Of a stretch of DNA of 64,000 nt, positions 44,780 through 47,408 are shown one piece after another. Under the pieces are notes generated by a model, which saw only the letters and a list, made by a program, of their open reading frames with translations, did not search any database and was not told where the DNA came from. Source of the DNA: Microbulbifer halophilus (GTDB lineage Bacteria; Pseudomonadota; Gammaproteobacteria; Pseudomonadales; Cellvibrionaceae); NCBI RefSeq assembly GCF_026183675.1, contig NZ_JAPIVK010000018.1:1-64000 (forward strand). Reading direction: 5' to 3'. The translations under genes were made by a program, and so were the position numbers. Each line of letters begins with the position of its first letter. Within the stretch, counting starts at the first letter, position 1.

Positions 44780-45511
44780 TCAGTGGTCCGGTAAATGCCA
44801 GTCGAAATCCCGGATCAGCGACATAAAGGGGCCCTGCGGCACTGCCACGAGGTCCAGGCGCTCACCGGTTTCCGGGTGGTCCAGTTGTAGCTGCAGTGCG
44901 TGAAGCAGCAGCCTGCCACAGCCGTACCACTCTGCAAAGAAACGGTTGTGCACCGACTTGCCGTACTTGGGGCAGCCGATCAGCGGGTGGTGGATATGCT
45001 TGAAGTGTCGGCGGATCTGGTGCCGGCGGCCGGTTTTCAGCTCTATTTCCACCAGTGAGTAGCGGCTGGTGGGGTAGCGGTCCACCGGGTAGGGCAGTTC
45101 GATGGTGTCCAGTCGGCGAAAGAGGGTGACGGCGGGCTGGTGGGGCAATTCCGCTTTGGGGCGTTTGCGCTGGTGCTTGAAATCGGCGACCGGTGGCAGG
45201 GGGTGGTCGATCAAACCTTCTTCGGGACAATAGCCCCGGCAGACAGCGATATATTTCTTTACCGTTTCATCGCCCTCCATCCGGGCCTGTACCCGCGCGG
45301 CGATTTCCCCGCTCTTGCCGAAGACGATGACACCGGAGGTGGGCTTGTCCAGCCGGTGGATGGGGTAGAGACGGCAGCCGACCCGATCGCGCAGGTACTG
45401 TAGCAGTACCCGCTTCTCGTGGCGGTCGATGTCGGAGCGGTGCACCAGCCAGCCCTCGGGTTTGTAGGCGGCGACGAGATACTCGTCTTCGAAGAGAATG
45501 TCCGGGTGCAT
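44780..45511 (-). CDS. truC: tRNA pseudouridine(65) synthase
   Basis: RluA-family enzyme. 243 aa from ATG 45511, which is preceded by AGGTCACC. The catalytic Asp is in YPIHRLDKPTSGVIV. The TruC-type features are a short N-terminus without an S4 domain, GRRHQIRRHFKHIHHPLIG, and RLLLHALQL. It modifies U65 in some tRNAs. It is divergent from rtcB. Confidence 0.92.
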   Translation of the reverse strand: MHPDILFEDEYLVAAYKPEGWLVHRSDIDRHEKRVLLQYLRDRVGCRLYPIHRLDKPTSGVIVFGKSGEIAARVQARMEGDETVKKYIAVCRGYCPEEGLIDHPLPPVADFKHQRKRPKAELPHQPAVTLFRRLDTIELPYPVDRYPTSRYSLVEIELKTGRRHQIRRHFKHIHHPLIGCPKYGKSVHNRFFAEWYGCGRLLLHALQLQLDHPETGERLDLVAVPQGPFMSLIRDFDWHLPDH

Positions 45512-45650
45512 ACTGGTGACCTGTCGGCAGAAAACTGGTGCGGGCATTATTATAGGTTTAGATCGCTGAAAGAGTCAGAGTCTATCTTGTGCGGTAGGGA
45601 AAGGACGGGAATGCACTGTAAGAGCCTGCTTACACCCTACACCCTTTGTA

Positions 45651-45678
45651 TTGACATTCTATTTTGGCTGGTTAAAAT
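45651..45678 (+). promoter_or_regulatory. Consensus sigma70 promoter of rtcB
   Basis: TTGACA (45651-45656) and TAAAAT (45673-45678) are 16 bp apart. This is the best match to consensus in the window. Transcription would start near 45685, leaving a leader of about 250 nt before rtcB. Confidence 0.8.
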
Positions 45679-45749
45679 CGCCCCACTTTCCGAACAACCT
45701 CCCATTCCCCGCGCTCCGCGCCACGGTGGAATACAGACAAAAGGAGTAC

Positions 45750-45773
45750 ATGAAATGCGGTATCAAAATCTGA
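45750..45773 (+). CDS. Possible leader peptide of rtcB (7 codons)
   Basis: ATG with AAGGAG four bases upstream encodes MKCGIKI and a TGA stop. A second, out-of-frame short frame starts at 45755 (MRYQNLTMRFT). The ribosome site is unusually good for so short a frame, and it lies just ahead of alternative hairpins and a terminator. No expression evidence exists. Confidence 0.45.
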   Translation: MKCGIKI

Positions 45774-45877
45774 CAATGCGTTTTACCTGATACACCTTTC
45801 ATGTGCTTGCGCTTGAGAGGTAGCAGTGCCTTTCAAGCCAGAATTTCCAAAAGCCCTGGCTGATGCCGGGGTTTTTT
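45760..45877 (+). promoter_or_regulatory. Putative transcription attenuator in the rtcB leader
   Basis: Hairpin 1: GTATCA (45760-45765) with TGATAC (45788-45793). Hairpin 2: CTTGAGAGG (45812-45820) with CCTTTCAAG (45829-45837), one G-U pair. Alternative stem: AGCCAG (45836-45841) with CTGGCT (45856-45861). The alternative stem uses bases from both hairpin 2 and the 5' arm of the terminator (45849-45877). Exclusive folds of this kind are the mark of attenuators and riboswitches. The ligand or signal is unknown. Confidence 0.55.
45849..45877 (+). terminator. Intrinsic terminator inside the rtcB leader
   Basis: AAAAGCCCTGGC pairs with GCCGGGGTTTTT around TGAT, followed by T residues. It lies 59 bp before the rtcB start and after the promoter, so it must be read through for rtcB to be expressed. 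Confidence 0.82.
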
Positions 45878-45935
45878 ATTTTCGGTTCCTGAAAGGCAGA
45901 TTCTATAAATACGTGGAGAAATCCAGGGGTTCGTT

Positions 45936-47144
45936 ATGCCTGTAAAAATGGTACTGAATGGCAATGCACCACCCGGCACCGTGCCGGTAAAGATCTACAC
46001 CGGCGAGGTGGAGCACGCGGTATTGCAACAACTGAAAAACATCGCCCGGTTGCCCATCGTGCACTCGCACGTGGCGGCCATGCCGGATGTGCATCTCGGC
46101 AAGGGTGCCACAGTGGGGTCGGTTCTTCCCACGGTGAGCGCGATTATTCCGGCGGCCGTGGGGGTGGATATCGGCTGCGGTATGAATGCGGTGCGCACTT
46201 CGCTGCATGCGCACCAGTTGCCGGACAACCTGAAATCGCTGCGCAGTGCGATCGAGGCAAAGGTGCCTGTGGGCTTTGGTCGCCACAAGCTGATTAGCGC
46301 CCGGGAGTCCGCCTGCAAACAGCTGTCGGCGGGTGCGGATCGCCTGTTTGAAAAACACCCGGCGTTATTGAAAAAACTGCGCCAGCCGCAGCAGACCTGG
46401 GTTACCCAGCTCGGCACCCTGGGCGGCGGCAATCACTTTATCGAGATTTGTCTCGACGAGGACAATGCGGTCTGGGTGATGCTGCACTCCGGCAGTCGCG
46501 GTATCGGCAACGCCATTGGCCAACACTTCATCCAGTTGGCGAAAAAGGATATGGCCGGTCATAGGCACAATCTGCCGGACAGGGAGCTGTCCTATTTCAG
46601 TGAGGGGAACGGCCATTTCGATGACTATATCGAGGCCGTCAACTGGGCCCAGGAGTACGCGCGGGTCAACCGGCAGGAGATGATGAAGCTGGTGCTCGGC
46701 TGCCTGCGCGAGCAGCTGCCGGCGTTCACGCTGACGTCCGAGGCGATCAACTGCCACCACAATTACGTGGTGCGGGAGGAGCACTTCGGTCGCGATGTTT
46801 TCGTCACCCGCAAGGGAGCCATCAGCGCCCGGCGGGACCAGCTCGGCATTATTCCGGGCTCCATGGGTGCCAGGTCGTACATAGTGCGGGGGCTCGGCAA
46901 CGCGGAATCCTTCTGTTCCTGCGCCCACGGCGCGGGCCGCAGGATGAGCCGCAGTGCCGCCCGCAAGCGCTTCAGGCGCAGCGACCTGGAAGAGCAGACC
47001 CGGGGTATCCAGTGCCGCAAGGACAGGGGCGTGATCGACGAGATCCCGGCCGCCTATAAGGATATCGACAGGGTCATGGAAAACCAGGCCGACCTGGTGG
47101 AAACGGTACACACACTGCGCCAGGTGGTCTGTATCAAAGGCTGA
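45936..47144 (+). CDS. rtcB: RNA-splicing ligase RtcB
   Basis: GTP- and Mn-dependent ligase that joins 2',3'-cyclic phosphate (3'-phosphate) to 5'-OH RNA ends. The 402-aa protein has the metal set: GVDIGCGMNA (Asp, Cys), LGGGNHFIE (His), HSGSRGIGN (His) and NCHHNYV (His). The guanylylated His331 is in SCAHGAGRRMSR. There is no rtcA or rtcR nearby. A 56-aa basic protein gene follows after 93 bp. Upstream is the attenuator-like leader. Confidence 0.95.
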   Translation: MPVKMVLNGNAPPGTVPVKIYTGEVEHAVLQQLKNIARLPIVHSHVAAMPDVHLGKGATVGSVLPTVSAIIPAAVGVDIGCGMNAVRTSLHAHQLPDNLKSLRSAIEAKVPVGFGRHKLISARESACKQLSAGADRLFEKHPALLKKLRQPQQTWVTQLGTLGGGNHFIEICLDEDNAVWVMLHSGSRGIGNAIGQHFIQLAKKDMAGHRHNLPDRELSYFSEGNGHFDDYIEAVNWAQEYARVNRQEMMKLVLGCLREQLPAFTLTSEAINCHHNYVVREEHFGRDVFVTRKGAISARRDQLGIIPGSMGARSYIVRGLGNAESFCSCAHGAGRRMSRSAARKRFRRSDLEEQTRGIQCRKDRGVIDEIPAAYKDIDRVMENQADLVETVHTLRQVVCIKG

Positions 47145-47237: not shown

Positions 47238-47408
47238 ATGAAAAAATCAAAACCCCGCAACCACGTTGCGATGAATCCGCTGCTGCGCAAGGGCGGCGCC
47301 CATGTGCGAGCCAGGTCCGGCAAGCGGTTTGCCGACAAGCAGCAAATGTTGAAGGCGGCGCGGGAGTGGAAAAGCTCCCGCGACTCCCTGTCTCTCTGTT
47401 TCCAGTAG
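47238..47408 (+). CDS. Small basic protein of unknown function downstream of rtcB
   Basis: 56 aa, strongly basic (MKKSKPRNHVAMNPLLRKGG...), mostly Lys/Arg/His-rich helix, no signal peptide or cysteine motif. It has a good GAGG ribosome site. It looks like an RNA- or ribosome-binding peptide, but that is inference from composition. It is probably co-transcribed with rtcB. Confidence 0.7.
   Translation: MKKSKPRNHVAMNPLLRKGGAHVRARSGKRFADKQQMLKAAREWKSSRDSLSLCFQ

Follow-up and report, generated by a model that had tools for sequence, protein, structure and literature searches.

The rtcB locus and its leader region

The window, by which the whole 64-kb stretch of DNA analyzed here is meant, carries a gene for an RtcB RNA ligase, which is followed by a gene encoding a small basic protein and preceded by a leader region with a promoter, short reading frames, and an intrinsic terminator. 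Six strands of the leader, designated A to F, have alternative pairing partners or contribute to the terminator, and a further strand, G, lies beyond it. The features of the locus are as follows.

45651..45678, + strand: sigma70-type promoter of the leader transcript, TTGACA-16-TAAAAT, with 11 of 12 matches to the consensus
45742..45746, + strand: AGGAG, the ribosome-binding site that serves the leader frame, 8 nt upstream of the second ATG
45748..45755, + strand: strand A, which overlaps the start codon and pairs with B across the leader frame
45750..45773, + strand: 7-codon frame MKCGIKI, present and not conserved
45755..45790, + strand: conserved leader frame of 11 codons plus stop, MRYQNLTMRFT, starting at the second ATG
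45795..45804, + strand: strand B, which pairs with A or C and begins 4 nt past the leader stop codon
45811..45821, + strand: strand C, which pairs with B or D
45828..45841, + strand: strand D, which pairs with C and whose end, AGCCAG (45836-45841), pairs with E
45849..45861, + strand: strand E, the 5' arm of the terminator, in which CTGGCT (45856-45861) pairs with D
45865..45877, + strand: strand F and the T-run of the intrinsic terminator
45849-45877, + strand: the intrinsic terminator as a whole, upstream of rtcB
45888..45897, + strand: strand G, 3' of the terminator, another sequence complementary to D
45914..45929, + strand: small hairpin TGGA..TCCA adjoining the rtcB ribosome-binding site
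45936..47144, + strand: rtcB, RNA ligase of 402 aa (Pfam RtcB, 443 bits)
47238..47408, + strand: small basic protein of 56 aa with the motif NPLLRKGGxH, linked to rtcB and the leader

The near-consensus promoter that the preliminary description had placed upstream of rtcB is conserved: 35 of 38 leaders match the consensus at 10 or more of 12 positions, 36 of 38 have the 16-nt spacer, and 34 of 760 shuffled sequences reach the same level of 10 matches. Between terminator and rtcB, no promoter-like site was found on the + strand. The intrinsic terminator, likewise claimed there, precedes the structural gene; its stem, E:F, is kept in all 17 genus leaders compared, and the region upstream of rtcB folds better than its own shuffles (z = -4.05), of which 1 of 200 did as well. 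An attenuator would be expected to have this layout, with a strong promoter leading into a terminator. Searching Rfam with the leader gave no match at threshold, the best subthreshold similarities being to Leu_leader (27.4 bits; gathering threshold, 50) and His_leader (21.7 bits; gathering threshold, 49), and four tRNAs were the sole threshold matches in the whole window.

Alternative helices, the leader frame, and ribosome position

The strands form two sets of helices, A:B, C:D, and E:F (the terminator) on the one hand and B:C and D:E (the antiterminator) on the other. Species specificity was assessed by setting duplex energies within individual leaders against those of strands combined across leaders, using hand-chosen anchors in 14 leaders; this set derives from 15 divergent leaders minus L097 and L098, which are near copies of L095, and minus L023, in which the frame is unclear, and it represents the genus by two leaders, L001 and L011. 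The helices A:B, B:C, C:D, D:E, and E:F were stronger within a leader, with 0, 0, 0, 2, and 0 of 20,000 permutations doing as well, and with ten cluster representatives the same five helices gave 0, 0, 0, 9, and 0. The control pairs A:C, B:D, A:D, and C:E (2785, 3318, 18818, and 16919 of 20,000) and B:E, A:E, and C:F (12600, 7710, and 14236 of 20,000) were not species-specific. Mutually exclusive antiterminator and terminator helices were found in the 14 leaders, whose pairing pattern, judged from the sequences, is that of a six-strand attenuator; D:E is nearly absent from L062, and the overlap between C:D and D:E amounts to no more than about two pairs. The AGCCAG:CTGGCT stem, described beforehand as mutually exclusive with the terminator, overlaps the 5' arm of the terminator and is upheld by the species specificity of D:E.

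The 17 genus leaders all form B:C, with 7 pairs, and C:D, with 11 pairs, and one position in B, C, and D changes together, being C-G-C in 10 leaders and T-A-T in 7. RNAalifold, applied to 12 leaders (L085, L095, L097, L098, and L023 were left out), predicted C:D together with E:F, with 22 pairs, 16 of which show a compensatory change; 97.0% of the cells in this fold pair, and none of 500 shuffles reached any of the five measures. The alternative stems are thus conserved in the rtcB upstream regions of relatives, where the preliminary description had suggested that covariation be sought. A pairing of E with the rtcB ribosome-binding site (CCAGGG), noticed by eye, was dropped, the site being CCAAGG in 4 of 17 genus leaders.

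The leader contains a translatable frame with a ribosome-binding site. The 7-codon frame (MKCGIKI) claimed at the outset exists, but the conserved frame is the one that starts at the second ATG (45755), 5 nt downstream of the first (45750). In all 26 strong genus leaders this frame is exactly 11 codons long, with a peptide that varies. Its start lies 7 to 8 nt after GGAG in the 17 genus leaders measured and 8 nt in the window. MKCGIKI was rejected as the conserved frame: counted from the first ATG, the frame ranges from 2 to 68 codons across the 26 leaders, and its first codon is ATA in 2 and GTG in 3 of them. Outside the genus, the 12 frames examined have 9 to 12 codons and encode unrelated peptides. 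A larger set of 74 frames, supplied in part by a detector that admits 6 to 20 codons, gave 60 distinct peptides, 37 of them with 11 residues and all within 9 to 13; the 19-codon detector frames of L168 and L170 had been dropped from it as wrong picks, and it does not include L189, whose frame, read by eye, has 28 codons. L024 and L096, with unclear by-eye frames of 14 and 17 codons, were not used. Cys and His are rare in the leader peptides.

The influence of ribosome position on these helices was modeled in the 14 leaders by folding nascent RNA that ended just past C, with the ribosome footprint kept unpaired. B:C exceeded 0.5 in all 14 leaders with the ribosome at codons 1 to 4, in 13 at codon 5, in 10 at codon 6, and in 7 at codon 7, and it did so in a single leader with the ribosome at the stop codon. 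It also did so in 8 of the 14 without a ribosome, so a leader that is not translated might read through as well in some species. Equilibrium folding of RNA made up to E, with the footprint at set positions, gave a mean B:C of 0.56 and 0.51 for codons 1 and 3, 0.05 for codon 7, 0.03 for the stop codon, and 0.08 without a ribosome; D:E was not cleanly switched at equilibrium, with means of 0.69 without a ribosome, 0.78 at codon 1, and 0.40 at the stop codon. In the window's own leader, B:C at equilibrium was at most 0.09 at any ribosome position, and its switch would therefore need to operate kinetically. The models thus predict a clear effect of ribosome position on B:C, and the last step to antitermination would probably be a kinetic one.

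Distribution of the leader and the genes beside it

When 58 relatives were searched with the RtcB protein, 22 orthologues from the same genus were obtained (79 to 100% identity; L001 to L022). A leader is present upstream of 17 of these 22, and none was found within 300 nt upstream of L007, L010, L014, L020, and L022. The covariance model built from the 17 leaders (R1) gave one strong match each in 26 of 48 genus genomes, with scores of 117.5 to 151.5 bits and the next best at 30.1 bits; 46 of the 48 genomes pass E ≤ 1, only the 26 being strong. The strong leaders lie upstream of rtcB in 24 of the 26 cases, one of these rtcB genes being in two pieces, and in the remaining two (L047 and L055) the leader precedes the small basic gene that is the usual companion of rtcB, with no rtcB at the locus. 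When R1 was run on 390 genomes of the order, matches at E ≤ 0.1 appeared in 191, most of which are terminator noise. Inspection outside the genus, which covered the matches L061 to L065, found L061 (57.4 bits) and L062 (48.1 bits) to be real and L063, L064, and L065 (39.3 to 34.1 bits) not to be.

Among 24 loci outside the genus that carry a window-type RtcB in the same 390 genomes, reading of the upstream region by eye revealed a leader in 13, including L085, where it stands before prfH, and L088, where it is on another contig of the same genome; three loci were unclear (L023, L024, and L096), and eight had no visible leader (L086 and L100 to L106). In a scan of named genomes, which covered 80 rtcB loci, the best 80 of 566 relatives, an automated detector found a match upstream of 35, compared with 5 of 395 shuffles and, among background windows taken at these loci, 22 of 2563. 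These 35 comprise 11 from Microbulbifer and 24 others, which include Hahella, Marinobacter, Alloalcanivorax, Ketobacter, Kangiella, Thiothrix, and a Chromatiales genome and, among the Betaproteobacteria, Dechloromonas, Burkholderiales, and Noviherbaspirillum. The detector gave no match at 45 of these best 80 loci, and at least 7 of the 45 do have a leader: L121 and L128 by R1 in the same contigs and L134, L148, L153, L173, and L195 by eye among 14 misses viewed. It also gave no match before five paralogous rtcB genes or before ten RtcB genes of the prfH type.

The small basic protein encoded after rtcB has 1836 homologues in a profile search; among the 120 listed, none has a Pfam domain, and all are "hypothetical" or nameless. 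The protein itself has no Pfam or NCBIfam match, a PDB search found no credible relative (best E, 0.43), and its AlphaFold model, a single helix with a pLDDT of 75 and a pTM of 0.38, is uninformative. Its gene is linked to window-type rtcB across several families and occurs at 46 of the 80 named loci (best 80 of 566 relatives), 24 of the 35 that are detector positive and 22 of the 45 that are negative. Its presence both with and without a detector match points to a tie with window-type rtcB more than with the leader. A second protein without a name, about 314 aa long (protein X; for example, L086:2907-3848), is encoded at 30 of the same best 80 loci, and its AlphaFold model is confident (pLDDT, 89; pTM, 0.90). 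At L085, the order is leader, prfH (TIGR03072, 196.8 bits; cut-off, 166.65), and rtcB, and at L096 and L146 an RbfA-family gene lies directly upstream of rtcB (42.0 and 38.1 bits; cut-off, 34.7). Such neighbors, with functions in ribosome rescue and assembly, are consistent with a translation-stress signal.

The preliminary description had found neither rtcR nor rtcA, which is true of the 64-kb window but not of the genome, in which another contig (C34) carries both around a second rtcB:

C34:37616-38158, - strand: rtcR (PF06956, 285 bits)
C34:38426-39619, + strand: second rtcB
C34:39763-40707, + strand: rtcA (PF01137, 261 bits)

A sigma54-like site, TGGCAC-N5-TCGC, lies upstream in three of the five genus rtcB paralogues examined, and the two ligases of the genome seem to be under different control. 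The proposal that the window rtcB is governed by its leader RNA and not by RtcR is supported by the comparison of leaders and by the location of an rtcR-rtcB-rtcA locus elsewhere.

Proposed mechanism, rival readings, and related systems

The promoter, the terminator, the five alternative helices, and the short frame with a length that does not vary within the genus, all evident from sequence and comparison, argue that the leader before rtcB is a ribosome-mediated transcription attenuator, to which we assign a probability of about 0.8. In the mechanism that we propose, the sigma70-type promoter would produce a leader RNA in which a short frame, of 11 codons here, has its ribosome-binding site and start at strand A. 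A ribosome that completes the frame would sit on B at the stop codon, allowing C:D and then the E:F terminator to form, and rtcB would be off. A ribosome stalled within approximately the first five codons would cover A and leave B free to pair with C; B:C would free D, and D:E would then pre-empt the terminator, so that rtcB and the small basic gene would be transcribed. The position of the ribosome would thus set the outcome, and the signal would presumably be stalling of, or damage to, the translation machinery. Among the signals suggested previously, stalled ribosomes fit the anatomy, given the short, well-placed frame of fixed length, the unconserved peptide, and the location of start and stop at A and B. 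No support in the form of a conserved unpaired core was found for the other two suggestions, a nucleotide ligand and direct sensing of RNA fragments.

The same core bears on the reading of the leader as a riboswitch or direct RNA-fragment sensor, in which a bound nucleotide or cleaved RNA would decide termination. The alternative structures are strong, the substrates of the ligase are RNA ends, and RtcR of other bacteria senses tRNA fragments (PMC7790460). However, in a 21-leader alignment (L098 and L023 left out), the invariant or nearly invariant columns are those of the ribosome-binding site, the stems, and the T-run, and a conserved unpaired core of the riboswitch-like, ligand-binding kind was not found; Rfam gave no riboswitch match, and a riboswitch has no need of a leader frame, which here keeps the same length throughout the genus. 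We regard this reading as very improbable. To the same slight degree, we consider it conceivable that the terminated leader serves mainly as a small RNA that acts elsewhere while rtcB receives constant readthrough: small RNAs, too, have strong promoters, compact hairpins, and terminators, and there is weak subthreshold Rfam similarity to OmrA-B and MicC, but the strong genus leaders all precede rtcB (24 of 26) or its usual companion gene (the other two), and the antiterminator pairing D:E is itself maintained. Mainly translational control, in which rtcB translation after readthrough would be decided by strand G and by the hairpin beside the rtcB ribosome-binding site, appears quite unlikely. 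D:G beats nearly all shuffles (at most 8 of 300) in 10 of 14 leaders, and the hairpin has an invariant TGG and ATCCA in a 17-leader alignment; a convincing D:G is missing, however, in L099 (17 of 300), L062 (34), L085 (59), and L092 (293), and the terminator and D:E are conserved too.

A further reading retains attenuation but supposes that the decoding of given codons is sensed, above all Gln in codons 2 to 5, so that the loss or cleavage of certain tRNAs, and not general stalling, would switch rtcB on. Gln and Asn are more frequent than expected in the 60 distinct leader peptides (51 versus 26 and 71 versus 41, respectively), and Gln falls within codons 2 to 5 in 23 of 46 peptide groups, a count reached by 14 of 5000 order shuffles. 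In the PA5471.1 leader, Gln3 and Phe4 are reported to matter for the response to Cca loss (PMC13041342). Against this, Gln gave the best result among nine residues, it is missing from codons 2 to 5 in the other 23 groups, no codon is common to all leaders, and a regulatory run of one amino acid's codons, as in trp and his leaders, was not found; we regard codon-specific sensing as unlikely, though less so than the preceding three possibilities.

PA5471.1/armZ of Pseudomonas aeruginosa is the closest precedent for a ribosome-mediated attenuator before rtcB. According to published work, armZ (PA5471) is an RtcB-like ligase gene adjoined by prfH (PA5470), and the 13-residue PA5471.1 leader governs armZ by transcription attenuation that responds to ribosome stalling (PMC12057347, PMC13041342, PMC3516279); a 2025 review holds that the armZ mechanism needs more work for confirmation. 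The two systems share a short leader frame, an intrinsic terminator, an alternative RNA structure, an RtcB-like ligase as the target, and a link to prfH (here in the relative L085), and activation by stalled ribosomes would be common to both. They differ in that armZ belongs to the prfH-linked RtcB family, whereas the window target is another RtcB with a full RtcB-family match, and in that the PA5471.1 leader has 13 codons and, in the published scheme, four segments, compared with 11 codons and six supported strands in the window leader. A 13-codon frame was recognized by eye in L107 and L108, two of the ten prfH-type RtcB genes without a detector match. The prfH-type genes L109 to L112, L115, and L116 have short upstream frames of different sequence with good ribosome-binding sites, without the terminator pattern of the detector.

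Attenuators of the his, leu, and trp type have a leader frame, alternative helices, and a terminator in common with the window leader, and the his leader follows the same six-strand logic; unlike them, the window leader has no run of codons for one amino acid, and its target is RNA repair and not biosynthesis. With the RtcR/sigma54 rtcBA operon, the locus shares the enzyme family and the purpose of RNA repair (PMC7790460), but the window rtcB has no adjoining rtcR or rtcA, and its promoter is of the sigma70 type. In the literature searched, which mostly excluded subscription journals and preprint servers, no attenuator before a window-type rtcB was found. The combination of leader-peptide attenuation, six strands, a frame length constant in the genus, a variable peptide, and an RNA-repair target appears to be new.

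What is known of RtcB induction in bacteria concerns mostly RtcR and damaged tRNA ends. If the proposed mechanism is true, a leader that follows ribosome progress would tie the production of an RNA ligase directly to failing translation, rtcB genes without rtcR would be explained, and the armZ case, so far a single Pseudomonas efflux system, would grow into a broad class. The small basic KGGxH family would become a candidate participant in the rescue or repair of ribosomes, a role suggested by the leader being kept before its gene in the two genomes without rtcB at that locus. More tentatively, and at odds that we place somewhat below even, the leader could be a widespread, as yet unnamed attenuator of Gamma- and Betaproteobacteria that monitors ribosome integrity and drives a ribosome-repair operon of RtcB and the KGGxH-family protein. 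The latter would then be a new small protein acting on the ribosome, to which some lineages would add PrfH, an RbfA-like factor, or the 314-aa protein; the cell would possess two alarms for RNA damage, one for broken tRNA ends (RtcR) and one for stalled ribosomes (the leader); and early Gln codons may tune the leader to the loss of particular tRNAs.

On the other side of the leader, at 44780-45547, the window encodes a divergent, TruC-like pseudouridine synthase (266 bits against an NCBIfam cut-off of 328), and at several loci of the genus a reading frame similar to this gene is also present upstream of the leader.
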